Of a stretch of DNA of 64,000 nt, positions 46,654 through 64,000 are shown one piece after another (within the stretch, counting starts at the first letter, position 1; each line of letters opens with the position of its first letter). A model generated the notes under the pieces. The model made no database searches. It saw nothing but the letters and a program-made list of their open reading frames with translations, and was not told where the DNA came from. This stretch comes from Schaalia odontolytica (GTDB lineage Bacteria; Actinomycetota; Actinomycetes; Actinomycetales; Actinomycetaceae), in contig NZ_CP102197.1 of NCBI RefSeq assembly GCF_024584435.1, forward strand, positions 2,325,596 to 2,389,595, in the 5' to 3' direction. Both the position numbers and the translations under genes were made by a program.

Positions 46654-48171
46654 GTGACGAACTTACTAGAGCTCAAGGGGATCTCTAAGACATTCCCCGG
46701 CGTGAAGGCGCTGTCCGACGTGGACCTCGACCTTCGACCCGGCGAGGTCTTGGGCCTCTGCGGTGAGAACGGAGCGGGCAAGTCCACGCTCATGAAGGTC
46801 CTCACCGGTATCCACAAATCCGACCCGGGTGGCGAGATCTGGCTGCAGGGGGAGAAGGTCGACATTCAGTCGCCGGAGCACGCGCGTGAGCTCGGGCTGT
46901 CGATCATTCACCAGGAACTCAACATCGTTCCGGACCTGACCGTCGCCCAGAACCTCTACATTGGACGCCCCAAGACGTCCACGTGGACCTACGTCAACGA
47001 CCGCAAGATGGTTCGCGATGCTCGCGAGCTGTTCGAGCGCCTCAACATGGACATCGACCCCACGGCGTACTGCCGGGACCTGCCGGTCGCGCGCCTGCAG
47101 ATGGTTGAAATCGCCCGGGCGCTGTCGTTTGACTCCAGGATCCTTGTCATGGACGAGCCCACGGCGCCCCTGACGACAACCGAAACCGAGTCTCTCTTCA
47201 AGCTGGTGCGCGACTTCGTCTGCCCGATGACCGGCCTGATCTTCATCACCCACCGCATGCCCGAACTCACCGAGCTCACCGACCGCATCTCGGTCCTGCG
47301 CGACGGCAAGTACATCGGCACGGTGGAGACCGCCTCGACTCCCATGAGCGAGGTCGTCAAGATGATGGTCGGCCGCGAGGTCCCAGCCGACGCGCGCCCC
47401 ACCACCAAGCCGCTGTCCGACGAGGCGGTCCTGCGCGTCGAGAACCTCTCGACGGTCAAGGTCGTCCACGACGTCTCCTTCGAGGTCAAGAAGGGCGAGA
47501 TCTTCGGCTTCGCCGGCCTGGTTGGCGCGGGCCGCACGGAGGTCGCGCGCGCCCTCTTCGGCGCAGACCCGCACACGGCGGGTGACATCTACGTCCACGG
47601 CGAGAAGGTCAGGATCAAGAGCGCCTCGGACGCGGTGAGGTACGGCATCGGATACCTCTCCGAGGACCGCAAGCAGTACGGCCTCCTGCTGGATAAGGAC
47701 ATCTCGTTCAACACGGGGCTTGCCGCCATGGACCACTTCACGAAGGCCACCGTGGTGGCCACCAAGAAGCTGCGTCAGATCGCCCAGGATTACGTGAAGA
47801 AGCTGCGTACTCGCACCCCCAGCGTGGACGTGGAGCTGCGGAGCCTTTCGGGCGGCAATCAGCAGAAGGTCGTCGTCGCCAAGTGGCTCGAACGCGACTC
47901 GGACATTCTCATCTTTGACGAGCCGACGCGCGGCATTGACGTGGGTGCGAAGGACGAGATCTACACGCTGCTGGAGAACCTCGCGAAGCAGGGCAAGGCC
48001 ATCATCGTGATCTCCTCGGAGCTGCCCGAGGTCCTGCGCCTGGCGAACCGCATCGCCGTCATGGCCCACGGCCGCATCATCGGCACCCTCACCAACGAGG
48101 AAGCCACCCAAGAAAACATCATGGAACTGGCCACCGTCGGTCAGGAAGAAGCGAACGGAGAACTTGCGTGA
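46654..48171 (+). CDS. sugar ABC transporter ATPase, RbsA type
   Basis: Double-domain ATPase of the carbohydrate CUT2 family, 505 residues. Domain 1 has Walker A GENGAGKST near 36-44, IIHQELN Q-loop, a degenerate signature (VARLQMVEIA) and DEPTAPLT. Domain 2 has an altered P-loop (GLVGAGRTE), the canonical signature LSGGNQQK near 408 and FDEPTRGID, which is the usual asymmetry for RbsA/MglA-like proteins. GTG start at 46654 has AAGGGGTG upstream. With the fucose genes downstream, an L-fucose-type substrate is likely. Confidence 0.88.
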   Translation: MTNLLELKGISKTFPGVKALSDVDLDLRPGEVLGLCGENGAGKSTLMKVLTGIHKSDPGGEIWLQGEKVDIQSPEHARELGLSIIHQELNIVPDLTVAQNLYIGRPKTSTWTYVNDRKMVRDARELFERLNMDIDPTAYCRDLPVARLQMVEIARALSFDSRILVMDEPTAPLTTTETESLFKLVRDFVCPMTGLIFITHRMPELTELTDRISVLRDGKYIGTVETASTPMSEVVKMMVGREVPADARPTTKPLSDEAVLRVENLSTVKVVHDVSFEVKKGEIFGFAGLVGAGRTEVARALFGADPHTAGDIYVHGEKVRIKSASDAVRYGIGYLSEDRKQYGLLLDKDISFNTGLAAMDHFTKATVVATKKLRQIAQDYVKKLRTRTPSVDVELRSLSGGNQQKVVVAKWLERDSDILIFDEPTRGIDVGAKDEIYTLLENLAKQGKAIIVISSELPEVLRLANRIAVMAHGRIIGTLTNEEATQENIMELATVGQEEANGELA

Positions 48172-49178
48172 GCACCGTCGTCGACAACAAGGGCCTGGAG
48201 GCGCCGTCGCCTGTTGCGGCCTTCCTGAAGAGGAACATGCAGCTGCTGCTGGTCACACTGGCGCTGCTGGTGGTCCTGGCATTCTTTAGCTTTGCAGTGC
48301 CCAACTTTGCGTTCGTCACTCGCGAGGTTTACCTGGGCATCGTCTTGCAGTCGGCCTACATTGGCGTCATGGCGCTCGGCGCTACCTTCGTGATCGCCAC
48401 CTCGGGTATCGACCTTTCGGTTGGTACTGGCCTGAGCCTCGTCGCAGTCATGGCGGGCATCTTCCTCGCGGGAGACAAGATGAACCTGCCGCTGGGTGCG
48501 GGCCTGGTCCTCACCCTCCTGGTCGGCATGGCGATTGGCCTGGTCAACGGCCTGAACATTTCGATCCTGGGCCTGCCGCCCTTCATCGCGACGCTCGCGA
48601 TGATGATGGTTGCCCGAGGCCTCGCCCTCATCATCTCCGATAAGGCGTCGATCTCGATTGCGAACCCCGGCTACAAGTACATCGCGTCCGGCACGCTCAT
48701 CCCTTACGTCGCCAACGCTGTCCTCATCTTCGTGGTCCTCACAATCATTGCTACCTTCCTCATGAACAAGACGCTGCTGGGTCGCTACGCCCTGGCCATC
48801 GGCTCCAACGAGGAGGCCACGCGCCTGTCCGGCGTGAACGTGCGCATGTGGAAGATCATCATCTACGTGGTCGCCGGTGCGTTCATGGCCATTGGTGCGG
48901 TCCTCTACTCGGCCCGTGGTGGCCTCGTCCAGCCCGCCGAGGGCGTGGGCATGGAGCTCAACGTCATCGCGGCCGCGGTCATCGGCGGTACCTCGCTGTC
49001 GGGTGGCCGTGCCTCGATCCCCGGCGCGCTCGTCGGCGCAATCCTCATGGAAACCCTCAAGAAGGGCCTGACGATGATGGGTATCGCCGCCGAATGGCAG
49101 TTCGTTGTCACCGGTATCGTCCTGCTCCTTGCGGTCGTTATCGACAACCTGCGTCGCATCCGCGAAAACGCAGCCTGA
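48168..49178 (+). CDS. sugar ABC transporter permease, RbsC type
   Basis: CUT2-family membrane permease, 336 residues with eight to ten hydrophobic helices. The family hallmarks ATFVIATSGIDLSVG and the AVIGGTSLSGGRASIPGALVG cytoplasmic coupling segment are both present. GTG start overlaps the ATPase stop. It forms the pore as a homodimer. Confidence 0.9.
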   Translation: MSTVVDNKGLEAPSPVAAFLKRNMQLLLVTLALLVVLAFFSFAVPNFAFVTREVYLGIVLQSAYIGVMALGATFVIATSGIDLSVGTGLSLVAVMAGIFLAGDKMNLPLGAGLVLTLLVGMAIGLVNGLNISILGLPPFIATLAMMMVARGLALIISDKASISIANPGYKYIASGTLIPYVANAVLIFVVLTIIATFLMNKTLLGRYALAIGSNEEATRLSGVNVRMWKIIIYVVAGAFMAIGAVLYSARGGLVQPAEGVGMELNVIAAAVIGGTSLSGGRASIPGALVGAILMETLKKGLTMMGIAAEWQFVVTGIVLLLAVVIDNLRRIRENAA

Positions 49179-49203
49179 TTCATTATTCGTCCCAATTACA
49201 CCC

Positions 49204-49223
49204 GTGAACCGACGTCGGTTCAC
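49204..49223. promoter_or_regulatory. 20-bp perfect palindrome between permease and SBP genes
   Basis: GTGAACCGAC directly followed by GTCGGTTCAC. It could be a hairpin that stabilises or limits one side of the polycistronic mRNA, or a protein-binding site. Confidence 0.6.
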
Positions 49224-49271
49224 ACTCACCAAGGGCGGGAATGACCCCGCCACCCCACGAAAGGAACACCA

Positions 49272-50336
49272 ATGCGCCCCATCGGACGTATCGTCGCCGC
49301 CGCCGCCGTCGGCTCCATGGCCCTGGGCCTGGCTGCCTGCACGACGTCGACCGACTCGACCGCCACGAAGTCCGGCGACTCCAAGACCGGCCAGTCCTCG
49401 GGAGCCACGAAGGTTGACACCTCGGGCAACCAGCAGGATTGGGAGAAGGCCGCCGTGAAGGGAGACGGCACGAAGACCGTCTACCTGGTGTCCAAGGGCT
49501 TCCAGCACCGCTTCTGGCAGGCCGTGAAGGAAGGCGCCGAGCAGGCCGGTGACGAGCTGGGCTACAAGGTCAACTTCGTCGGCCCTCAGGACGAGACCAA
49601 GGTGACCGAGCAGACCGACCAGCTCAAGTCCGCGCTGGACTCCGGCCCGGCCGCCATCGGCTTTGCCGCCCTCGACTCCAAGGCCGCTGCGGACCTCCTC
49701 TCGGAGATCAACAGCAAGGGCATCCCGGTCGTCGCCTTCGACTCCGGTGTTGAGTCCGACATCCCCGTCACCACCGTCCAGACGGACAACAAGGCCGCCG
49801 CCGCCGAGGCCGCCAAGCACATGATCGAGCTGCTCAAGGGTAAGAAGGGCTCGGTCGGCATGGTATGCCACGACTCGACCTCCACCACGGGCAAGCAGCG
49901 CTGCGAGGGCTTCAAGGAGTACTTCAAGGCCAACGCCCCCGCGGACCTGAAGCTTCTCGACGAGCAGATCGCCGGTGAGGTTACCAAGGCAGCCGACACC
50001 TCGCTGTCCATCATCCAGGCCAACTCCGACATCGTCGGCATGTACGGCTCCAACGAGGCCGCGGCTTCGGGCATCGTCCAGGGTGTTGCTGAGTCCGGCA
50101 AGGACGTGACCGTCGTGGGCTTCGACTCCGGCAAGACCCAGATGGACGCCATCAAGTCCGGCACCGAGGCCGGCGCCGTCACCCAGTCGCCCGTCAAGAT
50201 CGGCTACTACACGGTCAAGGCTGCCGTCGCCGCCCTCAACGGCGCTGAGCTGCCCAAGGTCATCGACTCGGGCTTCGCCTGGTACGACAAGTCCAACATC
50301 GACAACGCCGAGATCAAGGCGAACCTCTACGAGTGA
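49272..50336 (+). CDS. sugar-binding lipoprotein, RbsB type
   Basis: Periplasmic-binding-like lipoprotein (Peripla_BP_4 family), 354 residues. The signal peptide ends in the lipobox LAAC with lipidated C23, followed by a Ser/Thr linker. The mature domain has VYLVSKGFQHRFWQAVKEGAEQAG and GFAALDSKAAADLL, as in ribose/galactose-type SBPs. It delivers sugar to the RbsA/C-type transporter. GAAAGGAAC precedes the ATG. Confidence 0.9.
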   Translation: MRPIGRIVAAAAVGSMALGLAACTTSTDSTATKSGDSKTGQSSGATKVDTSGNQQDWEKAAVKGDGTKTVYLVSKGFQHRFWQAVKEGAEQAGDELGYKVNFVGPQDETKVTEQTDQLKSALDSGPAAIGFAALDSKAAADLLSEINSKGIPVVAFDSGVESDIPVTTVQTDNKAAAAEAAKHMIELLKGKKGSVGMVCHDSTSTTGKQRCEGFKEYFKANAPADLKLLDEQIAGEVTKAADTSLSIIQANSDIVGMYGSNEAAASGIVQGVAESGKDVTVVGFDSGKTQMDAIKSGTEAGAVTQSPVKIGYYTVKAAVAALNGAELPKVIDSGFAWYDKSNIDNAEIKANLYE

Positions 50337-50401
50337 GTGAGGCTCACGCGGGCACGAGGCCGGGGCTGACGACGACGTAGACGCCGGAGTCGGTGGCCCG
50401 A

Positions 50402-50433
50402 CGCGGGTCCCGCCCAGTGGGGCGGGACCCGCG
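50402..50433 (+). terminator. strong hairpin after the ABC operon
   Basis: Perfect 14-bp stem CGCGGGTCCCGCCC (50402-50415)/GGGCGGGACCCGCG (50420-50433), loop AGTG. No T-run. Separates the transporter genes from fucI. Confidence 0.7.
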
Positions 50434-50520
50434 GACCCGGCGCCAACTAGTTCACAGGATCCGAGGGGGTGAGAACCCCCGCGCTATGACATCGACATCT
50501 TCAAGAGGGATGAAGGAACA

Positions 50521-52284
50521 ATGACTGAACACCCCCGTATCGGAATCCGACCCACGATCGACGGGCGCCGCAAGGGCGTGCGCGAGGCGCTCGAAGAGCA
50601 GACCATGAACATGGCCAAGTCCGTCGCCGACCTCTTTACCTCCACGCTGCGCTACCCCGACGGCAGCCCCGTCGAGGTGGTCATCGCCGACACGACGATT
50701 GGCCGCGTCCACGAGGCGCAGGCCTGCGCCGCCAAGTTCCGCTCCAACAACGTGGGCCTGACCGTGACGGTGACCCCGTGCTGGTGCTACGGCACCGAGA
50801 CCACCGACATGGATCCGGCGATGCCGCACGCCATCTGGGGCTTCAACGGCACCGAGCGTCCCGGAGCCGTCTACCTGGCCGCCGCACTCGCCGGTCACGC
50901 CCAGATCGGCATCCCCGCCTTCGGCATCTACGGGGAGCACGTGCAGGACGCGGATGACACCTCGATCCCCGAGGACGTGCGCACCCGCCTGCTGGACTAC
51001 GCGACCGCCGGCCTGGCCGTCGCACAGATGAAGGGCGAGGCCTACCTGTCCATGGGCTCGGTGTCGATGGGCATCGCCGGCTCCGTCGTCAACCCCGATT
51101 TCTTCGGCGCCTACCTGGGCATGCGCAACGAGTACATCGACATGAGCGAGTTCACGCGCCGCATCGACGAGGGAATCTACGACCACGAGGAGTACGAACG
51201 GGCCTACAAGTGGATCCGTGAGAACTTCACGCAGGGCAAGGACTGGAACCCGCCGGAGTGGCAGTACCCCGACAAGCACGAGGACTGGTGGAAGTTCGTC
51301 ACCAAGATGACGCTCATCGGCCGGGACCTCATGCACGGCAACCCGCGCCTGGCCGAGCTCGGCTTCGAGGAGGAGGCGGGTGGCCACGGCGCCATCGCCG
51401 CGGGCTTCCAGGGCCAGCGCCAGTGGACCGACCACTTCCCCAACGGCGACGTGCTCGAAACCATCCTGAACACGAACTTCGACTGGACCGGGATCCGCCA
51501 GCCCTCGGTGGTCGCCACGGAGAACGACTCCCTCAACGGCGCGTCCATGCTCTTCGGCTACCTGCTGACCAACACGCCGCAGATCTTCTCCGACGTGCGC
51601 ACCTACTGGAGCCCGGAAGCCATTGAGAAGGCGACGGGCTGGAAGCCCGAGGGCTTGGCTGCAGCCGGCCTGCTCGACCTGCGCAACTCCGGTTCGACCA
51701 CCCTCGACGGCGCCGGGAAGGCGCTGCGCGACGGCAAGCCCGTCATCAAGCCGTGGTACGAGCTGACGGAGGAGGACCGCGAGGCCACCCTCGAGGCCAC
51801 GACCTTCCACCCGGCGTCGACCGGCTACTTCCGTGGCGGCGGCTTCTCCACCCACTTCCGCACCTCCGGCGGTATGCCCATGACCATGTGCCGCATCAAC
51901 CTCGTGCGCGGCCTGGGCCCGGTCATGCAGATCGCCGAGGGCTACTCCGTGGAGCTGCCCGACGAGGTCGCCTTCACCATCGAAGAGCGCACCAACATCG
52001 AGTGGCCCACGACCTGGTTCGTCCCCAACCTCACGGGCGAGGGCGCGTTCAAGAGCGTCTACGACGTGATGAATAACTGGGGCGCGAACCACGGTGCCAT
52101 CAGCTACGGCCACATCGGCGGCCAGCTGATCACGCTGGCGTCCATGCTGCGCATTCCGGTGAACATGCACAACGTGCCCGAGGAGCGGGTGTTCCGTCCC
52201 AAGGCGTGGTCGCTGTTCGGCACCGAGTCCCCGGAGGGCGCAGACTTCCGCGCCTGCCAGACCTTCGGACCGATGTACCGCTGA
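50521..52284 (+). CDS. fucI: L-fucose isomerase
   Basis: Metal-dependent ketol isomerase converting L-fucose to L-fuculose (also D-arabinose to D-ribulose). The 587-residue protein matches FucI in length and motifs: [18 protein letters not shown] at the start, CYGTETTDM, and the Mn ligands E334 (ATENDSLNG) and D358 (FSDVRTYW), whose spacing of 24 equals E. coli E337/D361. H524 ([12 protein letters not shown]) is near the position of E. coli H528. ATG 50521 with AAGGAA upstream. A perfect terminator-like stem follows. Confidence 0.95.
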
Positions 52285-52291
52285 GATAGTT

Positions 52292-52334
52292 CCCGTTCGG
52301 GCTCGGGTGTCCTCTCTCCCCGAGCCCGAACGGG
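52292..52334 (+). terminator. perfect 16-bp hairpin after fucI
   Basis: CCCGTTCGGGCTCGGG (52292-52307) with CCCGAGCCCGAACGGG (52319-52334), 11-nt loop, beginning 7 nt after the fucI stop. No T-run. Confidence 0.75.
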
Positions 52335-52447
52335 TCACCCGGCTCCGATCGATACCGGGCCGCGGCCCCGGCCTCGTCGATGAGGAAAGCCGCGTTCCAC
52401 CCAACGATGGGTGACGCCGAGCGAGGGCGCACCACAGGAGACCTTCA

Positions 52448-53857
52448 ATGACCACCGTACTTGCTGTTGACCTCGGATCCGCGTCCGGGCGAGTCCTCGC
52501 CGGAACGCTTCACGACGGACGCCTGGTCGTCACCGACATTCACCGCTTCAAGCACCAGGCCCAGCGCCGCGAGGATGGGACCCTCACCTGGGACGTGGCG
52601 ACGATGGAGGCCGAAACGATCGTCGGCCTGAAGAAGGCCCTCGAGCGCTTCCCCGACGCCCGCACGGTGTCGATCGACACGTGGGGAGTCGATTGGGCGC
52701 CTCTCGACGAGGACGGAATCCTGATCGGCGACGTGGTTGCCTACCGCGACGAGCGCACATCCCGGACGCTGGACGACTTCCGCAGCCGCATCGCCGACCG
52801 GGAGTTTTTTGACCTGACGGGCAACCAACCTGCCACCATCAACACGGCGAACCAGCTCTTTGCCTTCCTGCAGGAGAACCCGAGCGACGCCCGGCGCGTG
52901 CGCACCGCCTTGTTCCTGCCCGACTACTTCGCGTACCGACTCACCGGCGTCGTGGGATGGTCTCGCACGATCGCCTCCACGTCGGGCCTACTGACCCCGG
53001 GCGGCGCGGGCTTCAACGACGAGGTGTTCGCACGTCTGGGCATTCCGCGCGACTGGTTCGGCACGCTAGACGCGGACCGCACGGTCGTTGGCCCCTGCAC
53101 CGTTGCCGGCCTCGAAACCCTCAGCGTCGTGCGAGGGGGCGCCCACGACTCGGCGTGCGCCGTGCACGGCCTGCCCATCGAGGAGGGTAAGCGCGCCTAC
53201 TTCCTCTCGTGCGGATCCTGGTCGGTCCTCGGTGCCATCGAGGACGAACCCCTCATGAGCGACGCGGCCTTCGAACTCGGTATCACGAACGAGGGTCGCA
53301 CCGACGGGGGAGTGCGCCCGCTGTTCAACATCACGGGCATGTGGATCCTCCAGGAGATCCAACGCCAGTGGGAGCGCGAAGGAACGCCCACAGACACGGA
53401 CGAGCTGGTCGCCCAGGCCCGCGCCCTCCCGCCCGCCCCGGGCACCTTTGACCCGGACGAAGAGGCCTTCGCGACCCCCGGGGACATGCAGCGCAAGATC
53501 GATGAGGCGCTGGCGGCGCAGGGGGCGAGCCGTCCCGACTCGATGGCGGGATACGTGCGCGTCATCATCGAATCCTTCGCCCGCCGCTACGCGCGCGCGA
53601 TCGGTGAGCTGACCCAGGCCACGGGGAGGGCTCCCGACCAGCTCAACCTCGTGGGGGGCGGAGCGCGCAACCGGCTATTGTGCGATCTGACGGCCCAGAT
53701 CGCGGGAGTTACCGTCGTGCGCGGCCCCATCGAGGCCTCGACCTTCGGCTCTCTCCTCGCCCAACTCGAAACAATCGGCGCCCTGGCCGCCAACGAGCGC
53801 GCATCCGTCATCGCAGCAAGCGCACAGACCCATGTCCACACCCCGTCCCGCGATTAA
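52448..53857 (+). CDS. FGGY-family sugar kinase (fuculokinase/rhamnulokinase type)
   Basis: Carbohydrate kinase of 469 residues. It begins VLAVDLGSASGRVLAG (phosphate loop) and has DTWGVDWAPLD, GGAHDSACAVHG, SCGSWSVLG and NLVGGGARNRLLCDLTA; the start and SCGSWS region look most like RhaB. Next to fucI it most likely phosphorylates L-fuculose at C1, but L-rhamnulose or another ketose cannot be excluded from sequence. The 3' end overlaps the LacI regulator gene by 26 bp. Confidence 0.85.
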   Translation: MTTVLAVDLGSASGRVLAGTLHDGRLVVTDIHRFKHQAQRREDGTLTWDVATMEAETIVGLKKALERFPDARTVSIDTWGVDWAPLDEDGILIGDVVAYRDERTSRTLDDFRSRIADREFFDLTGNQPATINTANQLFAFLQENPSDARRVRTALFLPDYFAYRLTGVVGWSRTIASTSGLLTPGGAGFNDEVFARLGIPRDWFGTLDADRTVVGPCTVAGLETLSVVRGGAHDSACAVHGLPIEEGKRAYFLSCGSWSVLGAIEDEPLMSDAAFELGITNEGRTDGGVRPLFNITGMWILQEIQRQWEREGTPTDTDELVAQARALPPAPGTFDPDEEAFATPGDMQRKIDEALAAQGASRPDSMAGYVRVIIESFARRYARAIGELTQATGRAPDQLNLVGGGARNRLLCDLTAQIAGVTVVRGPIEASTFGSLLAQLETIGALAANERASVIAASAQTHVHTPSRD

Positions 53858-54827
53858 GAAGGTCTCGCTCGCCGACATCGCGCGGCGCGCGGGGGTGTCC
53901 ACCAACACCGTCTCGCGCGTCGTGCGCGGAGACCCCGAGGTGTCGGAGAAGACTCGCGCCCGCATCGCCAAGCTCGTCGACGAACTCGGCTACGTTCCCA
54001 ACTACGCGGCGCGGGCGCTGGCGGCCAAGCGCACCAACGTGTTGCAGGTCGTGTTGGCGGCCCCGATGTTCCACGGGCACGGGCGTGTTCTCCTCTCGAT
54101 CCTCAACGCCTCATCCCAGGCCGGGTATCACGTCTCCCTGTCCTACGCCTACGGGCCGGACGGCCAGCTCAGGAGCGACTTTGCCCCCTTCGACGTTGAC
54201 GGGGTCATCATCCTGGGCGGGCAGGATCCCACGATCGACGTCGCCATTGAGGCCGGCGGGCGCTTTCCGACCGTTCTCGTGCTGACGAGCGAAAAGGGCC
54301 TCGATGGTATTTCGACGGTCGCGGTCGACAACGTGCGCGGGGCGCGCCTGGCAACCGAGCACCTCCTCGCCCAGGGGCTGACGGACGTCGTCCATATCGC
54401 CGGTCCGCTCGGATGGTCCGACGCGCAGATGCGCAGGCTCGGCTACGAGCAGGCGTGCGAGAGCTACGGGGTCACCCCGGCGGTCCTGCAGCCCGACTCG
54501 TGGGACTCGCGCGACGGCTACGACGTGATGCGCGCCGCCGGCCGTCTGCCCCAGGGGATCCAGACCGCCAACGATCAGCTCGCGCTGGGGGCCATGCGCT
54601 ACATCTACGAGCGTGGGGGAGTGGTTCCTCGGGATGTGCGTGTCGTCGGCTTCGATGACATCGACGGCGCCGACTCCTACGCGCCGCCGCTCACGACGAT
54701 CCACCAGCCCTTCGACAGGCTGGGGCGCACGGCGGTTCGCCTCGTGCGATCGCTCATGGGCGGTGGCCCCTCCCAGGACATCGTCATCGATCCCGAGCTG
54801 GTCATCCGGGCCAGCTCCCACCTATAG
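53832..54827 (+). CDS. LacI-family regulator
   Basis: Transcription repressor of 331 residues. The HTH lies at about residues 10-55 (VSLADIARRAGVSTNTVSRVVRGDPEVSEKTR) with the hinge helix NYAARALAAKR. The sugar-binding domain ends with VVGFDDIDGADSYAPPLTTIHQP. It overlaps the kinase gene by 26 bp and precedes the mutarotase by 12 bp, so it is an internal operon gene. It probably responds to fuculose, its phosphate or a related sugar. The locus also encodes a DeoR regulator, giving two candidate controllers. Confidence 0.88.
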   Translation: MSTPRPAIKKVSLADIARRAGVSTNTVSRVVRGDPEVSEKTRARIAKLVDELGYVPNYAARALAAKRTNVLQVVLAAPMFHGHGRVLLSILNASSQAGYHVSLSYAYGPDGQLRSDFAPFDVDGVIILGGQDPTIDVAIEAGGRFPTVLVLTSEKGLDGISTVAVDNVRGARLATEHLLAQGLTDVVHIAGPLGWSDAQMRRLGYEQACESYGVTPAVLQPDSWDSRDGYDVMRAAGRLPQGIQTANDQLALGAMRYIYERGGVVPRDVRVVGFDDIDGADSYAPPLTTIHQPFDRLGRTAVRLVRSLMGGGPSQDIVIDPELVIRASSHL

Positions 54828-54839
54828 AAAGGCACGTTC

Positions 54840-55271
54840 ATGCTCTACGGTCCCATGACTCACCCGCAGTTCCTGCGCGCCCTCGCCGCCGCCGGACACG
54901 GGTCGAAGATCCTGCTGGCGGACGCCAATTATCCTCACACGACGGGCGTATCGCAGCGCTGCGAGCTCGTGTCGCTGAACCTGGCTCCCGGCCTCCTGGA
55001 TGTCCTCCAGGTCCTGGAGGTGCTCAAGCACACGATCCCGATTGAGCGAGCGGAGATCATGACCCCCGCCGCCGACGCCGAGCCGGTGGACATCCCCATT
55101 CACGGGGAGTTCCGCGAGGCGCTGCCGGGCGTGGAGTTTGGTGAACTCTCCCGCTTCGACTTCTATGACGCCGCGCGCGCCGAGGATGTGGGCATCATCG
55201 TGGCCACGGGAGAGCAGCGCCTGTATGGCAATCTGTTGCTCACGGTCGGGGTGCGTGCGCCGGGAGAGTAA
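54840..55271 (+). CDS. fucU: L-fucose mutarotase (RbsD/FucU family)
   Basis: Anomer-interconverting mutarotase of 143 residues that speeds use of imported L-fucose by FucI. It has the catalytic H20 (AAAGHGSKILLADANYPH), D28, and the YGNLLLTVGVR C-terminus typical of RbsD/FucU. In a fucI locus FucU is preferred over RbsD. GAAAGG precedes the ATG, and a terminator follows at 55381. Confidence 0.88.
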   Translation: MLYGPMTHPQFLRALAAAGHGSKILLADANYPHTTGVSQRCELVSLNLAPGLLDVLQVLEVLKHTIPIERAEIMTPAADAEPVDIPIHGEFREALPGVEFGELSRFDFYDAARAEDVGIIVATGEQRLYGNLLLTVGVRAPGE

Positions 55272-55516: not shown

Positions 55517-55559
55517 TTGCATACTTTCGTTTTAGTGACTATTCTGTCCTTAACGAAAG
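55517..55559 (+). promoter_or_regulatory. deoR promoter with flanking CTTTCGTT operators
   Basis: TTGCAT (55517-55522) and TATTCT (55540-55545) with a 17-bp spacer. CTTTCGTT (55524-55531) in the spacer and its exact reverse complement AACGAAAG (55552-55559) at the expected start point flank the -10 box. This layout suits autorepression by the DeoR protein. Confidence 0.65.
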
Positions 55560-55601
55560 GCAAAGCGACAGAGATGTTGCTCATCCGCAAATGAGGTGCC
55601 C

Positions 55602-56351
55602 ATGGGACGTGCAGAGGAACGCACGAACTACATCCTGGATCGCCTCGCCCGCGAGGGTGAGGTGAGCGTCGCTCAGCTTGCTTCGGATCTGGGGGTTTCC
55701 CCCGTCACCGTTCGCGCGTCGCTCAAGACCCTGGACGAGCAGGGGTACCTCGTGCGCACCCACGGGGGAGCCCGCCCCACCACCTTCCGCAACATTCACC
55801 TGCGCCAAAGCGACCGCGTCGAACAGAAGGAGCGCATCGCGCGGGCCGCGGCCGACATGATTCACGACGACGACCGCATCATGATCGAGGCGGGGACGAC
55901 GTGCGCGCTCATCGTCAAGTACCTGACCGGCAAGCGCGGGGTCCAGGTCCTGACCAACTCCGTCCTCGTCTTCGCCAACGCCCGCTCCAACCCCAGCCTC
56001 AACATCACGCTGACGGGCGGGCACTTCCGCGCCGAGTCCGAGTCCCTGGTGGGGCCGGTCGCCGAGCGCGCCATCAATGACTTCAACGCGCGCGTCGCGT
56101 TCCTTGGAACCGACGGCTTCAGCGTTGATCGCGGCCTGACCACCCAACTCGTGGAGGGTGGACAGGTCGGCTCCATCATGCGCACCCGCGCGCAAGAGAC
56201 GTGGCTGCTTGCCGACTCCTCGAAGTACGGGGAAGCCGGCTTTGTCAGCTTCATGGGGATCGACCAGGTCACCGGAATCATCACCGACGATGAGATCCCC
56301 GAAGAATCCATCAAGGAATTGGCCGAGCGCACGAAGCTGCGCATCGTCTAG
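55602..56351 (+). CDS. DeoR-family regulator
   Basis: DeoR-type transcription factor of 249 residues. The HTH spans about 5-60 (RTNYILDRLAREGEVSVAQLASDLGVSPVTVRASLKTLDEQGYLVRTHGGA), and the sugar-phosphate-sensing domain has IMIEAGTTCALIVKYL (ISOCOT-type GTT motif) and ADSSKYGEAGFVSF. The effector is typically a phosphorylated sugar. I chose ATG 55602 because GAGG lies 6-9 nt upstream; a GTG two codons earlier overlaps that site. It heads the operon with the dehydrogenase genes (next gene 10 nt downstream). Confidence 0.9.
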   Translation: MGRAEERTNYILDRLAREGEVSVAQLASDLGVSPVTVRASLKTLDEQGYLVRTHGGARPTTFRNIHLRQSDRVEQKERIARAAADMIHDDDRIMIEAGTTCALIVKYLTGKRGVQVLTNSVLVFANARSNPSLNITLTGGHFRAESESLVGPVAERAINDFNARVAFLGTDGFSVDRGLTTQLVEGGQVGSIMRTRAQETWLLADSSKYGEAGFVSFMGIDQVTGIITDDEIPEESIKELAERTKLRIV

Positions 56352-56361
56352 GAGGAAATAC

Positions 56362-57711
56362 ATGGCCACCATCGTGGTGATGCCCCAGCTGGGCAACTCT
56401 GTTGAGTCGTGCATCATCGTCGAGTGGATGATCGCCGAGGGCGACACCGTCGCCGTCGACCAGACCCTCGCGTCCATCGAGACCGACAAGTCGACGATGG
56501 AGGTGCCCTCGACCGCTGAGGGAACCGTCCTGAAGCTCCTGTGGGAGGAAGGCGACGAGGTCCCCGTCAAGGATCCCCTCATCATCGTCGGAGCGCCCGG
56601 AGAAGACATCTCGGGCCTCGTCCCCGGAGGCGAGGGTGCCAGCGAGTCGGCCGAGGCTGCCGCCGCTCCCGGGCAGGCCGCCGCTGCCCCCGAGCAGGCC
56701 GCCCCCGCCTTCGCGACCGAGCGCGCCACGGGAGCCGTCTCCCCGCGCGCCCGTGCCCTGGCCGCCAGTTCCGGCGTGGACGCCTCGGCCATCGCCGAGG
56801 GGTCGGGTCCCCACGGGCGAGTCATCGAACGCGACGTTGCCGCCGCGATCGCGGCCGGCCCCACCCTGACCTCCGCCGCGCGCGCCGCGGGAGTGAGCGC
56901 CACGGAAGGCACCGGCATCGGAGGGCGCGTCAGCGTCGCGGACGCAAACCGGGCCCCCGAGGCGAGCGCGCCCGCCGCCGTTCCCGCCCCCGCTCCGGCC
57001 GCCGACTTCCCCGGGGCCTCCACCTCCTCCCCGCTCAAGGGAGTGCGCAAGGTGGTCGCCAAGCGCATGATGGAGTCCCTGACCACGACGGCTCAGCTCA
57101 CCCTCAACACGAGCGCGAACGCTGCGGGCATCCTCGCCCTGCGCAAGAAGGTCAAGAACGCCGACGAGGCCCTCGGCCTGAACAAGATCACCCTCAACGA
57201 CCTCGTCTGCTTTGCCGTGTCGCGCACCCTGCCCAAGTACCCGGTCTTCAACGCACACCTCGAGGATGGTGTCCTCACCGAGTTCGAGCAGGTCCACCTC
57301 GGCTTTGCGTGCGACACCCCGCGCGGCCTCCTGGTTCCCGTCATCCGCTCGGCGCAGTCCCTGGGCCTCAAGGCGTTCTCCGACGAGGCCAAGCGCCTCG
57401 CGGGCGCCGCGATCGACGGCACCCTCTCGCCCGATTACCTGGGGGGCGGAACCTTCACGGTGTCCAACATCGGGTCCTTCGGAATCGAGACCTTCACCCC
57501 CGTCATTAACCTTCCCCAGACGGCGATCCTCGGCGTCGGCGCGATCACCCCGCGCCCGGTCCTCGCCCCCGACGGCGCCGTTGGCGTCCAGCAGCGCCTC
57601 AACCTGTCGCTCACGATCGACCACCAGGTCATCGACGGCGCGGACGGAGCGCGCTTCCTGCGCGACCTTGTCGCCGCCATCGAGAACATCGACGTGACCG
57701 TCCTGGCCTGA
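56362..57711 (+). CDS. 2-oxoacid dehydrogenase E2 (dihydrolipoamide acyltransferase)
   Basis: E2 core of a 2-oxoacid dehydrogenase complex, 449 residues. The N-terminal lipoyl domain has K43 in ETDKSTMEVPS. A peripheral subunit-binding domain follows at about 126-164 (SPRARALAASSGVDASAIAEGSGPHG, only partly quoted here by its ends), with a second, shorter similar segment at about 168-197. The catalytic acyltransferase domain runs to the end with H421 and D425 in the HxxxDG motif. Linkers are Ala/Pro-rich. ATG 56362 with TAGGAGGAA upstream, 10 nt after deoR. It works with the E3 and fused E1 encoded next. Confidence 0.92.
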   Translation: MATIVVMPQLGNSVESCIIVEWMIAEGDTVAVDQTLASIETDKSTMEVPSTAEGTVLKLLWEEGDEVPVKDPLIIVGAPGEDISGLVPGGEGASESAEAAAAPGQAAAAPEQAAPAFATERATGAVSPRARALAASSGVDASAIAEGSGPHGRVIERDVAAAIAAGPTLTSAARAAGVSATEGTGIGGRVSVADANRAPEASAPAAVPAPAPAADFPGASTSSPLKGVRKVVAKRMMESLTTTAQLTLNTSANAAGILALRKKVKNADEALGLNKITLNDLVCFAVSRTLPKYPVFNAHLEDGVLTEFEQVHLGFACDTPRGLLVPVIRSAQSLGLKAFSDEAKRLAGAAIDGTLSPDYLGGGTFTVSNIGSFGIETFTPVINLPQTAILGVGAITPRPVLAPDGAVGVQQRLNLSLTIDHQVIDGADGARFLRDLVAAIENIDVTVLA

Positions 57712-57726: not shown

Positions 57727-59094
57727 ATGAGCGAGACACATTTCGACGTCATCGTCCTGGGGGCCGGCCCCGGCGGCTACCTGGCCGCCGAGCGCCTCGG
57801 CCACGCGGGCAAGAAGGTCGCCTTGGTGGAGGAGCAGTACCTGGGAGGCACCTGCCTGAACGTGGGCTGCATTCCCACCAAGACCCTGCTCAACGGCGCG
57901 AAGAACTACCTGCACGCCAAGGAAGCCAGCCAGTTCGGTGTGGACGCCCAGGGCGTGGCCGTCAACTGGGCGCAGATGCAGGCCTGGAAGGACCAGGTCG
58001 TGCGCGGCCTCGTCGCGGGCGTGGCCGCCACCGAGCGCAAGGCGGGAGTCACCGTCATCAATGGTCGAGGCCACCTCGATGCCCCCGGTCGCGTCACCGT
58101 TGAGGGAACGACCTACACCTCGGACCACGTCATCATCGCCACCGGCTCGGTCCCGGCCATGCCGCCGCTGCCCGGCACGCAGGACAACCCGGCACTCGTG
58201 GATTCGACGGGCATCCTGTCCCTGCCCGAGGTGCCCGAGCGCCTGGCGATCATCGGCGGAGGCGTCATCGGCGTCGAGTTTGCCTCCCTGTACGCCACCC
58301 TCGGCTCGCAGGTGACCGTCATCGAGATGGCCCCCGAGATCCTTCCCTTCATGGACGACGACCTCGCCGCCAAGGCGCGCGCCGCCATGACGGACGTGAC
58401 CTTCGAACTGGGCTGCCGCGTCGAGTCCCTCGACGGGGGTACCGTCCACTACTCCAAGGGCGAGGAAAAGAAGAGCGTCGAAGCCGACGTCGTCCTCATG
58501 GCGGTTGGCCGCCGTCCCGCCACTGCGGGCTGGGGGGCCGAGGAAGCCGGTCTCGAGATCAACCGCGGCATCGTCGTCGACGACACGATGCGCACGAACC
58601 TGCCCAACGTGTGGGCCATCGGCGACGTCACCGGACGCTCGCTCCTGGCGCACGCCGCCTACCGCATGGCGGAGATCGCCTCGGCGAACATTCTCGACCC
58701 TGCCGCCAAGAAGCGCGGCGAGGTCATGCGTTGGCACACCGTCCCGTGGGCCGTGTTCTCGATCCCCGAGGCTGCCGGAGTCGGCCTGACCGAGTCCGCC
58801 GCCAAGCGCGAAGGCCGCGAGGTCCTCGTCGCGAAGGTCCCCGCCCTCATGTCCGGGCGCTTCATCGCCGAGAACGGCTTCAAGGCTCCGGGCGAAGCGA
58901 AGATCCTCGTGGACCCAGACACGCATCAGGTCCTCGGCATCCACGTCCTGGGCGCCTACGCCGCCGAGATGATCTGGGGAGCGCAGGCCGTCCTCGAGAT
59001 GGAGCTCACCGTCGAGGACCTGCGCCAGGTTGTCTTCCCTCACCCCACGGTCTCCGAAGTGATCCGCGAGGCCGCCTGGGCCGTCACGCTCTAA
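57727..59094 (+). CDS. lpdA: dihydrolipoamide dehydrogenase (E3)
   Basis: FAD-dependent disulfide oxidoreductase that reoxidises dihydrolipoyl groups with NAD, 455 residues. The FAD motif is GAGPGGY at 12-18, the redox-active pair is C43-x4-C48 in [13 protein letters not shown], the NAD-binding [12 protein letters not shown] lies near 178, and the C-terminal active-site region is FPHPTVSE. It is 15 nt after E2 and 31 nt before E1, so the three subunits form one transcription unit. Confidence 0.94.
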
Positions 59095-59125: not shown

Positions 59126-61579
59126 ATGACTAAGTCTCTCATCATCGACCCCTCCGAGGTGCGTCGCCCGGGGCACGTGAAGTTCCCCGACATCCCGGTC
59201 AACCAGTACCGCTTCGACCGCGACACCGAGATCGCCCGCTACGGCAAGGACGGGTTGGTCCAGATGCTCCACGACATGATCGTCGTGCGCACCTTCGAGT
59301 CGATGCTCGACTCCATCAAGAAGACCGGCGCCTGGGAGGGCGTTGAGTACAACCATCGCGGCCCCGCCCACCTGGGCATCGGCCAGGAGAGCGCCTACGT
59401 CGGCCAGAGCTTCGTGCTCAGCCCACAGGACTTCATCTTCGGCTCCCACCGCTCTCACGGTGAGATCCTCGCCAAGTGCTACTCGGCCATGCACCAGATG
59501 GACGATGGTCAGCTTGAGGACATCATGAAGGGCTTCCTGGGCGGTGAGACCCTGTCCTACGCGGAGAAGATCGGCTACTCGGACACGAAGGACCTGACGG
59601 AGAACTTCATCCTCTTCGGCGCGCTCGCTGAGATCTTCGCCCGCAAGTCGGGCTTCAACCGCGGCCTTGGCGGATCGATGCACACCTTCTTCCTGCCGTT
59701 CGGCTCCTACCCGAACAACGCGATCGTGGGCGGAAGCGCCCCCATCGCCAACGGTGCCGCGCTCTTCAAGCGCATCAACCGCAAGCCCGGCATCGTCATC
59801 TCCAACGTCGGTGACGCCGCGCTGGCGTGCGGCCCCGTGTGGGAGGCCCTCAACTTCGCCTCGATGGATCAGTTCCGCTCCCTGTGGCGCGAGGAGGACG
59901 GCGGCAACCCGCCGATCCTATTCAACTTCTTCAACAACTTCTACGGCATGGGCGGCCAGACCTTCGGCGAGACCATGGGCTACGAGATCCTCGCTCGCGT
60001 AGGTGCGGCCCTGAACCCCGAGGCCATGCACGCCGAGCGCGTTGACGGACTCAACCCGCTCGCCGTCGCGGACGCGACCACTCGCAAGAAGAAGATCCTG
60101 GAGGAGGGCCGCGGCCCCGTCCTCATGGACACCATCACCTACCGCTTCTCCGGCCACTCCCCGTCGGACGCCTCCTCGTACCGCACGAAGGAAGAGGTCG
60201 ACCTGTGGGAGCAGGTGGACTGCATCAAGGAGTACTCCGACCTCCTCATCTCCAACGGCTTGACCACGCGCGACGACATCGACTCCTACACGTCCTCCCT
60301 GACCGACAAGCTGGTCAAGGTCCTCAAGCTCGCCATTGACGACGAGGCCACCCCGCGCGTTGCCGACGGCTACATCGACTCCGTCATGTTCTCCAACGAG
60401 AAGGTCGAGTCCTTCGACGACGCGACACCCGAGATCGACCTGGAGGACAACCCGCGCGTGAAGGCCCTGGCCAAGAAGGTGCGCACCAGCGTTGACGAGA
60501 ACGGGAAGCCCGTCTCGAAGATGCGCATGTACCAGTTCCGTGACGGCCTGTTCGAGGCGATGCTGCACCGCTTCCAGATCGATCCGACGATGGCCGCATG
60601 GGGCGAGGAGAACCGCGACTGGGGTGGCGCGTTCGCCGTCTACCGCGGCCTGACGGAGGCCCTGCCCTACCGTCGCCTCTTCAACTCGCCGATCGCCGAG
60701 GCCTCCATTGTCGGCGCGGGCGTCGGCTACGCGATGGCCGGCGGGCGTGCGGTCGTTGAGCTCATGTACTGCGACTTCCTGGGCCGCGCGGGCGACGAGG
60801 TCTTCAACCAGATGGCCAAGTGGCAGTCGATGAGTGCCGGCCTGCTCAAGATGCCTCTCGTCCTGCGCGTGTCCGTGGGAGCCAAGTACGGCGCTCAGCA
60901 CAGCCAGGACTGGAGCGCGCTCACCGCCCACATCCCCGGCCTCAAGGTCTACTTCCCGACCACGCCCACGGACGCCAAGGGCATGCTGAACCTCGCGCTG
61001 TCGGGCACCGACCCCGTCGTCTTCTTCGAGTCCCAGAAGCTCTACGACAAGGGCGAGGACTTCGAACCCGGCGGCGTCCCGGAGGGCTACTACGAGACCG
61101 AAGAGGGCGAGCCCGCCATCCGCCGCGAGGGCAGCGACATCACGATCGCGGCATACGGCGCCACCGTCTACAAGGCACTCGAGGCGGCGGACGTGCTGGC
61201 CGAGAAGTACGGGCTGAGCGCCGAGGTCATCGACCTGCGCTTCGTCGCCCCGCTGAACTACGACAAGCTCATCGCTTCCGTGAAGAAGACCGGCCGCCTG
61301 CTCCTGACCTCGGATGCGGTCGAGCGCGGATCCTTCCTCAACACGGTGGCAGCGAACGTGCAAACCCTGGCCTTCGACGCGCTCGACGCGCCCATCGCCG
61401 TGGTTGGCTCGCGCAACGGCATCACGCCCGGACCCGAGCTTGAGTCGTTCTTCTTCCCGCAGGTCTCGTGGATCCTCGATGCCATCCACGAGCGCATCCT
61501 GCCGCTGCCCGGACACGTGCCCACCACGAAGCACGCGACCGAGGCTGAGATCGCGCGTCTGAACCGCGCTGGTCTGTAG
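59126..61579 (+). CDS. 2-oxoacid dehydrogenase E1, fused alpha-beta subunits
   Basis: Thiamine-diphosphate-dependent decarboxylase component of 817 residues. It joins an alpha-like part (about 1-430: [41 protein letters not shown]) and a beta-like part (about 465-817: [46 protein letters not shown]). The ThDP motif reads GDA rather than GDG and ends in FNNFYGMGG. The substrate (pyruvate, branched-chain or another 2-oxoacid) cannot be told from sequence. Linkage to a fucose-type sugar locus suggests a product of that pathway. ATG 59126 has GGAAGAG upstream. A cluster of hairpins follows. Confidence 0.88.
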
Positions 61580-61585
61580 GGCCTT

Positions 61586-61694: not shown

Positions 61695-61738
61695 CCACAA
61701 TCGTGAGACAACAGCTTTTTTCTCCACCCAACGAAGAG

Positions 61739-63058
61739 ATGGCGGAATCCATGGACATCACCAACGACCCGGCTTCCACCCCGGCCCAGCGCATCGAGGC
61801 GCTGCGCGCGGTGGTCGCGAACGAGCACTTCCCGAGCTGGGTGCCCGAGTCAAATAACCACATTCACACGTGCTTCTCCTTTAGCCCCTACACCCCCACG
61901 CACGCCGCCCTCCTGGCTCGACGCGCGGGACTGAGGGTCGTCGGCTCCGTCGATCACGATTCCATCGGCGCGGCGGCCGAGATGAGCGAGGCGACCCGCA
62001 TTCTGGGCATGGGTTCCGTTACCGGCTTCGAGATCCGCGCTCGCTTCGGCGAGGGCACCGCGCTCGCCCAGCGCAAGCTCAACAACCCCGATTCCGTGGG
62101 CGTCGCCTACATGACCGTCCAGGGCGTGCCCGCTCCGGCACGTGAGAAGGTCGCGCAGTGGCTGGCCCCCAAGCGCGCCGCCCGCCTCGAGCGCACGCTG
62201 GCGATGGCCGAGCGCGCCAACAAGATCCTCACCGACCTGAGCCTGGAGCCCTTCGACCCGCAGGTCGACATGGTAGGCATCTCGCAGTACGCAAACGGCG
62301 GCGGTATCACCGAGCGTCACCTGCTGGCCGCCATGGCCTCGGCCCTCATCCGCGGTTTCGGCCGCGGCCCCGCCCTGGTCCAGGGCCTGGACTCCATGGG
62401 CGTCGAAATCCCCGAGTCCCTCGCGCGCGTCCTGGCCGACTCCGACAACCCGCACCTCATGTACGACCTGCTGGGAGTCCTCAAGGCCAACTACCTGGAC
62501 CGCATCTACATTCAGCCCACCGACGAACTGCCGAGCGCGGCCGAGGTCGTGGCCTTCGCCGACTCCATCGGAGCGATCGCCACCTACGCCTACCTGGGCG
62601 ACGTGTCAGCCTCGCCGACGGGAGATAAGAAGGCCGAGAAATTCGAGGACGACTTCCTCGATGAGCTCTTCGAGTACATGGAGTCCATCGGCCTGCGCGC
62701 CGTCACCTACATGCCCCCGCGCAACACCTCCGAGCAGCTGGAGCGCATCCACGCGCTCGCGGCCGCCCACGGCATGCTCGAGATCTCAGGCGTGGACATC
62801 AACCAGCCCCGACAGCGCTTCACCTGCGAGGAGCTGCGCCGCGAAGAGTTCGCGGACCTCAACGAGGCCACGTGGGCCCTCGTCGCGCACGAGGCCCTGT
62901 CCTGCGTGGATCCCTCCCTGCACCTGCTGGGCCGCACGGGTCGCCTGACCCCCGAGGCGCTCGCCCAGCGCATCAGCCAGTACGCGCCCCTGGGTCGCGC
63001 GATTGCCGACGGCGAGGACGCCGCCGCGGTTGCCGCCCGGGCCACATCGATTAACTGA
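61739..63058 (+). CDS. PHP-domain metal-dependent phosphoesterase-like protein
   Basis: Protein of about 439 residues with a PHP fold. Metal-ligand motifs are NNHIHTC (H41, H43) and VDHDS (D72-H73-D74), and the C-terminal half includes a further segment with GVDIN. PHP proteins hydrolyse phosphoesters; this long form's substrate is unknown. ATG 61739 is the first start after a T-rich stretch. ATG 61751 with a weak GGCGG upstream is an alternative. It lies between the E1 gene and an SDR and is probably part of the same sugar pathway. Confidence 0.7.
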   Translation: MAESMDITNDPASTPAQRIEALRAVVANEHFPSWVPESNNHIHTCFSFSPYTPTHAALLARRAGLRVVGSVDHDSIGAAAEMSEATRILGMGSVTGFEIRARFGEGTALAQRKLNNPDSVGVAYMTVQGVPAPAREKVAQWLAPKRAARLERTLAMAERANKILTDLSLEPFDPQVDMVGISQYANGGGITERHLLAAMASALIRGFGRGPALVQGLDSMGVEIPESLARVLADSDNPHLMYDLLGVLKANYLDRIYIQPTDELPSAAEVVAFADSIGAIATYAYLGDVSASPTGDKKAEKFEDDFLDELFEYMESIGLRAVTYMPPRNTSEQLERIHALAAAHGMLEISGVDINQPRQRFTCEELRREEFADLNEATWALVAHEALSCVDPSLHLLGRTGRLTPEALAQRISQYAPLGRAIADGEDAAAVAARATSIN

Positions 63059-63085
63059 CGATCATCGTCGAGAAAGAGAGACATC

Positions 63086-64000
63086 ATGAGTAACGCCCCC
63101 GAGGTACGCGGCCTCTTCCTGAAGGCCCTCGGCCGCCCGGTCATCGTGGCACCCAGCGACGCCGAGCCGACCGTCACCTTCGACGGCCCGCTCACCGAGG
63201 TGTGCCCCTGTTCCCTGAAGGAGACGGAGCTTCCCGTCGTCGTGCGCGCTGGTGAAGAGACCTTCGAGGTTCGCGCCACCGCCACCGGCGAGCGGGCCAT
63301 CAACGGCCGCGTCGCCCTCGTGACGGGTGGCGCCCAGGGATTCGGCGCGGAGATCGCGCGCGGCCTGGTGGACGCCGGATGCTTCGTGTACGTCGCCGAC
63401 CTGAACGGTGAGGGCGCCGCAGCCAAGGCGGCCGAGCTCGGCGGCGAAGGCGTCGCCCACCCGATCACCGTCAACGTCGCCGACGAGGAGTCCGTCGCAG
63501 CGATGGCCACCGAGATCGAGCGCGTCACCGGCGGCCTCGACCTGGTCGTCTCTAACGCGGGCATCGTGCGGGCCGGCTCCGTCCTCGAACAGGACGCCTC
63601 CGCGTTCCGCCTGTCCACGGACATCAACTACGTGGCCTTCTTCCTGGTCACCAAGCACCTGGGCCAGCTCCTGGCCCGCCAGCACTCGACCGCCCCCGAG
63701 TGGCTGACCGACATCATCCAGATCAACTCCAAGTCCGGCCTGGTCGGCTCGAACAAGAACGCCGCCTACGCGGGTTCGAAGTTCGGCGGTATCGGCCTGG
63801 TCCAGTCCTTCGCCCTCGAGATGGTTGCTCACGGCGTGAAGGTCAACGCGATCTGCCCCGGCAACTTCTACGACGGCCCTCTCTGGTCCGACCCGGACCG
63901 TGGCCTCTTCGTTCAGTACCTGAACTCCGGCAAGGTCCCCGGTGCCAAGACGGTCGCCGACGTCAAGGAGTTCTACGAGGCGAAGGTCCCCATGCGCCGC
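63086..64000 (+). CDS. SDR-family dehydrogenase, 3' end beyond window
   Basis: Short-chain dehydrogenase/reductase with 305 codons visible and no stop before the right edge. An N-terminal extension of about 74 residues without a recognisable domain (it includes CPCS at about 40-43) precedes the Rossmann motif TGGAQGFG (80-87). The catalytic residues are Ser in QINSKSG and Y228-x3-K232 (AYAGSKFG). The NSKSGLVGSNKNAAYAGSK stretch resembles sorbitol-6-phosphate dehydrogenase SrlD and the SDR half of RhaEW-type proteins (aldolase/lactaldehyde dehydrogenase), so a polyol phosphate or lactaldehyde are candidate substrates. ATG 63086 follows AAAGAGAGA. Confidence 0.82.
   Translation, partial: MSNAPEVRGLFLKALGRPVIVAPSDAEPTVTFDGPLTEVCPCSLKETELPVVVRAGEETFEVRATATGERAINGRVALVTGGAQGFGAEIARGLVDAGCFVYVADLNGEGAAAKAAELGGEGVAHPITVNVADEESVAAMATEIERVTGGLDLVVSNAGIVRAGSVLEQDASAFRLSTDINYVAFFLVTKHLGQLLARQHSTAPEWLTDIIQINSKSGLVGSNKNAAYAGSKFGGIGLVQSFALEMVAHGVKVNAICPGNFYDGPLWSDPDRGLFVQYLNSGKVPGAKTVADVKEFYEAKVPMRR

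Follow-up and report, generated by a model that had tools for sequence, protein, structure and literature searches.

The genome of Schaalia odontolytica GCF_024584435.1 (99.97% complete) consists of a single contig of 2,389,595 bp (NZ_CP102197.1), and the window analyzed here comprises its last 64,000 nucleotides (positions 2,325,596 to 2,389,595). The end of this window harbors two adjacent operons, which we describe as a candidate L-fucose module without an aldolase and whose named parts were checked with Pfam and NCBIfam family searches using curated cut-offs. The first operon (46654-55271), like the second encoded on the plus strand, starts with a sugar ABC importer consisting of an RbsA-type ATPase (46654..48171, PF00005), a permease (48168..49178, PF02653), and a substrate-binding protein (49272..50336, PF13407). 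It is followed by the L-fucose isomerase FucI (50521..52284), which exceeds both NCBIfam equivalog cut-offs (TIGR01089, 956.7 bits vs. 850; PRK10991, 1018 vs. 775), an FGGY kinase (52448..53857, PF00370/PF02782), a LacI-family regulator (53832..54827), and a FucU/RbsD mutarotase (54840..55271, PF05025, 98.8 bits), whose best NCBIfam match is the L-fucose mutarotase, below its cut-off (48.3 vs. 141). The kinase, which we propose to be an L-fuculose 1-kinase, scores RhaB-like, below the rhamnulokinase cut-off (TIGR02627, 334.1 bits vs. 527.95), and fails the FucK family test (TIGR02628, 71.9 vs. 470.9). The importer, FucI, FGGY kinase, and FucU named in a first-pass annotation of the letters alone are thus all present. 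Homologs of the importer ATPase stand beside FucI in eight Tessaracoccus/Arachnia-type loci (66-69% identity) and occur in four spirochaete loci (51-54%), and the genome encodes three alpha-L-fucosidases (PF01120).

The second operon begins 324 bp behind the first with a gene for a DeoR-family regulator (55596..56351), followed at intergenic gaps of 10-171 bp by the genes of a lipoyl-dependent complex, namely E2 with lipoyl, E3-binding, and acyltransferase domains (56362..57711), the dihydrolipoyl dehydrogenase E3 (57727..59094), and a fused E1 alpha-beta using thiamine diphosphate (TPP) (59126..61579), then by a PHP-fold protein of 435 residues (61751..63058) and a short-chain dehydrogenase/reductase (SDR). 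The start of the PHP gene is probably at 61751 rather than 61640, since its relatives begin at that site. The gene run as first described, with DeoR heading E2, E3, and fused E1 ahead of PHP and SDR, was confirmed by the family searches. The SDR gene (63086..64000) continues at contig bases 1-108 to a total of 340 residues, with its stop codon at bases 106-108 in frame with the part at the window end, which shows a circular chromosome that was opened in this record within a gene of the operon. Close relatives, most of which bear the names Schaalia and Actinomyces, carry the SDR uncut at the same length (e.g., L005:11435-12457); annotation of the present record would split the SDR and part it from the gene that follows. 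This next gene, outside the window coordinates, encodes a zinc-dependent medium-chain dehydrogenase/reductase (MDR) of 533 residues (L002:211-1812, L002 being the contig start). Behind it lie a gene for a 275-residue protein that matched no Pfam or NCBIfam family (L002:1928-2755) and then an rRNA operon. The cluster of the 275-residue protein spans six loci including its own and falls outside the wider conserved core.

The first-pass annotation had seen no class II fuculose-phosphate aldolase in view, proposed a non-classical route, and offered as an alternative that the aldolase simply lies downstream. Inspection of the sequence beyond the window removed this alternative, as the circular contig continues with the MDR, the 275-residue protein, and rRNA genes, none of which is a class II aldolase gene. 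The absence extends to the entire genome, for which the class II aldolase family PF00596 gave no match and no first-look candidate, other aldolase families not being searched; as a control, the same search was positive in 12 of 14 named genomes. For comparison, the E. coli-type FucI-FucK-FucA pathway likewise has an importer, FucI, an FGGY kinase, FucU, and presumably L-fuculose-1-phosphate as an intermediate, but the present genome carries the MDR-SDR-PHP-E1E2E3 genes and no class II aldolase.

Co-occurrence of these families in other genomes, as called for in the first-pass annotation, was studied by scanning genome contigs with a PHP alignment, which yielded 63 loci. For the counts, 60 loci from Actinomycetota and Spirochaetota with a PHP of at least 40% identity were used, and L063, L066, and L067 with a PHP under 40% were dropped. 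The full set of DeoR, E2, E3, E1, and SDR flanks PHP in 49 of the 60 loci, with E1 present in 55 and SDR in 57. Among the 11 loci without the full run, eight end too near PHP, which does not apply to L029, L058, and L064; in L029, E1 lies some 6 kb from PHP after a second DeoR gene. In spirochaetes, the run continues as SDR-FGGY kinase-MDR, and four spirochaete loci carry FucI at a distance of 4-8 kb from DeoR(-E2-E3), with LacI and mostly the importer between. A search of plasmid records with PHP gave no match. The locus of Actinomyces bouchesdurhonensis (L065) revealed pieces of MDR and of the 275-residue protein both before and after E1 and a partly matched PHP, possibly an assembly fault or a rearrangement.

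Two sets of genomes were then compared for FucI, PHP, and class II aldolase, the distances between FucI and aldolase being read from listed positions. The first set comprised 151 Actinomycetaceae genomes, 24 of which contained FucI above the cut-off (one of 25 matches, G046, fell below it and was dropped). PHP relatives were counted only if nearly full-length (E below 1e-150), giving 11 genomes, as a tally of 97 of 151 includes weak partial matches. All 11 fall within the 24 genomes with FucI (Fisher 1.6e-10). A class II aldolase was located within 5 kb of FucI in 12 of the 13 FucI-positive genomes lacking PHP vs. 0 of the 11 with PHP (Fisher p = 1e-5), five of which have no class II aldolase anywhere in the genome; these tests take genomes as independent, and their p-values overstate this independence, as 10 of the 11 PHP-bearing genomes belong to one genus, which tempers the case for replacement. 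In the four inspected loci that have an aldolase but no PHP, the order is FucI-kinase-aldolase-FucU (L119, L121, and L122), or the aldolase lies on the other side of FucI (L120). A tblastn search of G114 and G125 with five single aldolase queries and one fusion, covering 38 kb and 19.9 kb, revealed no aldolase match. The second set comprised 37 PHP-bearing genomes from 38 of the 63 loci, only G155 apparently being common to both sets. FucI was detected in 34 of these 37 genomes, or in 34 of the 35 with a close PHP relative, and no class II aldolase lay within 5 kb of it in any of the 34, though 33 of the 37 encode one somewhere in the genome; in metagenome-assembled genomes (MAGs), the contig sometimes ends close to FucI, which weakens the absence there. 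Two of the three genomes without FucI are archaea with a PHP only 28-29% identical (L063 and L066), which shares the motifs YAYLGD and SGVDIN. Since a class II aldolase is absent near FucI in the genomes with PHP and present in nearly all of those without, the gene content makes it very likely that the module replaces the class II fuculose-phosphate aldolase in L-fucose use.

Some loci run counter to this replacement. The spirochaete MAG loci L058 and L064 have PHP in a surrounding sequence without E1 or SDR, and genome G095 has FucI with neither PHP nor a nearby aldolase. Genome G005 (the same as G155; L112/L026) contains, besides the module, a class II aldolase gene at a distance of 14.5 kb from FucI; its product is close to FucI-linked aldolases of genomes without PHP (E 5e-59 to that of G019). 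This aldolase gene is convergent to MDR, and its neighbors encode an LsrF-type thiolase (455.7 bits, cut-off 297) and a RhaD-SDR fusion. It may therefore be part of a different cluster and would then be no plain counter-example, but it stays as a caveat. The G095 locus itself (L118, C27:71000-90900) shows FucI-kinase-FucU without a class II aldolase match or PHP and is perhaps yet another solution to fuculose-phosphate cleavage. Alternatively, an aldolase of another family encoded elsewhere could cleave fuculose-1-phosphate, with the E1 complex, PHP, SDR, and MDR serving some other, co-regulated substrate. Such an enzyme would have escaped a genome search that covered PF00596 alone, but this explanation appears distinctly unlikely given that 34 of the 37 genomes with PHP, which span two phyla, also have FucI, that a class II aldolase is missing beside FucI in these genomes, and that the four spirochaete loci keep FucI 4-8 kb from DeoR-E2-E3 in a different arrangement.

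Co-regulation was suggested at the level of candidate operators. The box AACGAAAG is found in five copies in the 64 kb, where 0.49 would be expected, and four of the five lie at the two operon promoters. One copy (46593..46600, plus strand) precedes the importer-FucI operon by about 60 bp, and three (55320-55327, 55524-55531, and 55552-55559, no strand assigned) lie upstream of DeoR. This shared box suggests that the second operon is co-regulated with fucose entry. Related Schaalia loci likewise have TTTCGTT-type boxes upstream of DeoR, and with a looser pattern, boxes precede DeoR in 33 of 51 loci.

Regarding the enzymes of the second operon, the SDR had been called an extended SDR, but its motifs GGAQGFG and YAGSK identify it as a classical SDR with an N-terminal extension of about 70 residues. 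Its best family, at scores below the cut-off, is sorbitol-6-phosphate 2-dehydrogenase (PRK12384), as in SrlD and SorD. The MDR of the spirochaete loci is 50-51% identical to an annotated sorE product, L-sorbose-1-phosphate reductase. In L026, a SorE-type MDR with 69% identity to the spirochaete MDR occupies the same place behind the SDR, suggesting the same role for the window MDR, which is longer than SorE-type MDRs and finds its best match in a Deinococcus alcohol dehydrogenase (29%). Full-length relatives of the window MDR were detected in 18 of 48 genomes tested, all of them with PHP, and in none of the 13 FucI-positive genomes without PHP; among 17 further PHP-bearing genomes, 14 have a weaker C-terminal MDR match and three a SorE-type MDR in their loci.

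By sequence, SDR and MDR are thus similar to the SorD/SorE pair, an enzyme couple that converts a ketose-1-phosphate via a polyol phosphate to a ketose-6-phosphate. The first-pass suggestion that the sugar phosphate is first oxidized to a 2-oxoacid is not supported, as such a relay would make a ketose-6-phosphate and not an acid. In L-sorbose catabolism, SorD converts D-sorbitol-6-phosphate to D-fructose-6-phosphate. According to PMC12817954, an E. coli sorE deletion mutant was unable to reduce L-sorbose-1-phosphate to D-sorbitol-6-phosphate. Both systems appear to draw their MDR and SDR from common families and would have a ketose-1-phosphate as input, but a 6-deoxy substrate would here end as a 1-deoxyketose-6-phosphate, which is not directly glycolytic, and PHP and the lipoyl complex are added. 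Fischer bookkeeping showed that SorE must place the C2 hydroxyl of L-sorbose-1-phosphate on the left to yield D-glucitol and that the same choice on L-fuculose-1-phosphate gives the galactitol pattern, i.e., 1-deoxy-galactitol-6-phosphate. Oxidation of this compound at C2, in the configuration present in sorbitol-6-phosphate, leads to 1-deoxy-D-tagatose-6-phosphate. The relay therefore fits, since the C2 configuration written by SorE and read by SorD is the one needed to pass from L-fuculose-1-phosphate to 1-deoxy-D-tagatose-6-phosphate. In PMC2962223, 1-deoxy-D-galactitol is equated with L-fucitol, and its enzymatic oxidation to 1-deoxy-D-tagatose is described as feasible.

The same bookkeeping was applied to D-arabinose as the natural substrate. 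As FucI enzymes also accept D-arabinose, it could be isomerized to D-ribulose, phosphorylated to D-ribulose-1-phosphate, and passed by MDR and SDR to D-xylulose-5-phosphate, a product that the relay would indeed yield. This would leave nothing for the E1 complex and PHP to do and require the SDR to read the configuration opposite to that of sorbitol-6-phosphate, and the three fucosidase genes point to L-fucose; we regard D-arabinose as a highly improbable substrate.

The genes upstream of PHP encode a 2-oxoacid dehydrogenase-type complex with all parts present, i.e., E1, E2 with the lipoyl motif ETDK and the catalytic HxxxDG motif (HQVIDG), and E3 with the redox cysteine pair (CLNVGC). The fused E1 is a single match in the genome, which elsewhere encodes AceE (C1:608233) and two further acyltransferases (C1:667912 and C1:223476). 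Thus, the complex is an extra one, and the possibility that it is the general pyruvate dehydrogenase was rejected. With no class II aldolase found and no general pyruvate dehydrogenase in the locus, both findings that could have undone the proposal of a non-classical route are absent, and this proposal gains support. The E1 remained below the pyruvate dehydrogenase cut-offs in both its beta half (236.6 vs. 321 and 232.7 vs. 454) and its alpha half (174.6 vs. 393.85). Among the matches listed (25 and 50 of 708 records, compared as identity bands), the beta half shares 59-61% identity with fused E1 proteins encoded on plasmids of Agrobacterium, Rhizobium, and Pleomorphomonas, other E1 beta proteins reaching at most about 41%. 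In three loci of this clade outside the module, L091-L093, E1 has genes for a lipoyl-domain protein and an alpha/beta hydrolase as neighbors, and the retrieved region also encodes sugar kinases or xylulokinase as well as sugar importers, for which reason the clade appears to be tied to sugars rather than pyruvate. No E3 or full E2 is annotated adjoining E1 in these rhizobial-type plasmid loci, which may thus encode a reduced complex. One relative of the clade is annotated as acoB beside acoC. Acetoin dehydrogenase complexes cleave acetoin-like methyl ketones to acetyl-CoA and an aldehyde. With these and the pyruvate dehydrogenase complexes, the present complex shares E1 (TPP), E2 (lipoyl), and E3 with intact motifs, but its fused E1 belongs to a separate clade and lies in a locus for sugar-phosphate enzymes.

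The PHP protein has the PHP phosphoesterase fold, and VIA-align listed no closer one. In comparison with BAD_1165 (3O0F) and 2YB1 of Chromobacterium violaceum, which have 284-287 residues vs. 435 here, the protein is encoded in a sugar operon and has three positions replaced, one Asp by Phe44 and two His by Tyr281 and Asn351. These residues are invariant and align with the Asp of 3E0F and 9ETK, the His of 3E0F, and the His of 9ETK, respectively. We take the replaced positions to be canonical metal ligands of PHP phosphoesterases, and their loss makes a role as an ordinary phosphatase unlikely. Of the two functions originally suggested for PHP, dephosphorylation is therefore doubtful, and cleavage is still conceivable. 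The latter could take the form of a new metal-dependent fuculose-1-phosphate aldolase producing dihydroxyacetone phosphate and L-lactaldehyde, with SDR and MDR taking lactaldehyde towards pyruvate and the complex acting as a dedicated pyruvate dehydrogenase. This is in line with PHP taking the place of the class II aldolase in the phylogenetic profile, with the loss of the ordinary phosphatase ligands, which makes a lyase role possible, and with an iron alcohol dehydrogenase in eleven spirochaete loci, for which lactaldehyde reductase is among the weaker family matches (111-118 bits, far below the cut-off). Overall, we consider an aldolase function unlikely, and a metal-dependent isomerase or epimerase is our preferred guess for PHP.

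Based on these findings, we propose a reaction sequence for the module, which is inferred from the kinase step onward. L-fucose would be imported and converted to L-fuculose by FucI with FucU, and the kinase would form L-fuculose-1-phosphate. The zinc MDR, acting as SorE, would reduce C2 to L-fucitol-1-phosphate (identical to 1-deoxy-galactitol-6-phosphate), and the SDR, acting as SrlD/SorD, would oxidize the carbon adjoining the methyl group, giving 1-deoxy-D-tagatose-6-phosphate. A methyl ketose with an adjacent hydroxyl group is an acetoin analogue, and together with a TPP-lipoyl-CoA complex encoded in the operon this suggests cleavage between C2 and C3. The fused E1-E2-E3 would handle the methyl ketose like acetoin, transfer CH3-CO onto lipoate, and release acetyl-CoA, NADH, and a tetrose-4-phosphate. 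Phosphoketolase likewise uses TPP to remove two carbons from a ketose phosphate with no loss of CO2, but the product here would be acetyl-CoA plus NADH via lipoate and not acetyl phosphate. PHP would act next to the complex step, e.g., by inverting C4, which would make the tetrose phosphate D-erythrose-4-phosphate, an intermediate of the pentose phosphate pathway. That the two operons form one L-fucose module without an aldolase and with these relay-plus-complex reactions has, in our estimation, an even chance of being correct.

Several features of the proteins and of the chemistry speak against this scheme. The SDR stays below the PRK12384 cut-off of 307, with 172.7 for the protein truncated at the window end and 212.1 for the full spirochaete protein. 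The spirochaete MDR is nearer to E. coli zinc-binding dehydrogenases such as yggP (56%) than to SorE, and the window MDR is distant from SorE (26% over 42% of the query, E 2e-6). The best family matches of E1, though below their cut-offs, are pyruvate dehydrogenase families. With the looser pattern, the operator box precedes the importer in only four of 19 relatives, so that a box common to both operons is well supported for the window alone. Finally, the simplest stereochemistry gives D-threose-4-phosphate, for which we know of no use in this context, and the epimerase step assigned to PHP was invented to mend this.

A further observation in favor of the proposal came from fructose-6-phosphate aldolase genes, detected by family search and tblastn in six genomes at no more than 10 kb from the module; the one in L101 (2703-3410) exceeds the curated cut-off, and its relatives lie in L027, L029, L034, L035, and L042. 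The other loci showed no relative by tblastn apart from a 28% match in L036. In a variant with the relay as proposed, the 1-deoxyketose-6-phosphate would be aldol-split by this enzyme or by PHP to hydroxyacetone and glyceraldehyde-3-phosphate, and the complex would take a later product such as pyruvate. The genes in the six genomes agree with this variant, but the lone 28% relative elsewhere, the membership of E1-E2-E3 in the conserved run, and the redundancy of a dedicated pyruvate complex with AceE make it quite unlikely.

With regard to known routes, the non-phosphorylating L-fucose pathway operates without FucI or a kinase. It proceeds via fuconate and 2-keto-3-deoxyfuconate and shares with the present proposal the substrate and an NAD-dependent dehydrogenase acting on a deoxy-sugar intermediate (cf. 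PMC11199699). A search of open-licence PubMed Central literature by title or start of abstract, with subscription literature mostly outside it, retrieved no description of this pathway or gene set. In its widest form, our proposal would amount to a third, carbon-conserving L-fucose pathway in two phyla, in which a polyol-phosphate relay would move the carbonyl to the methyl end, PHP would be a novel sugar-phosphate 4-epimerase, and 1-deoxyketose phosphates would be cleaved to acetyl-CoA and erythrose-4-phosphate by a lipoyl complex from a new clade; the rhizobial E1 clade would use related chemistry on other ketoses, and fructose-6-phosphate aldolase would act on the 1-deoxyketose-6-phosphates of the pathway in Tessaracoccus. 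This wider scheme is tentative, and we hold it with considerable doubt.

L-fucose, a sugar of the gut and mouth, ranks among the main sugars of mucins and host glycans. If the proposal is true, metabolic reconstructions based on fucA would overlook the use of fucose by Schaalia, Arachnia, Tessaracoccus, and several spirochaetes or would assign the wrong products, namely lactaldehyde and 1,2-propanediol in place of acetyl-CoA. Cleavage of a sugar phosphate by a lipoyl dehydrogenase complex would extend the range of this classic enzyme family. Altogether, the module would provide a PHP family with a task and give a lead on the natural role of fructose-6-phosphate aldolase, which to our knowledge has long been unclear.

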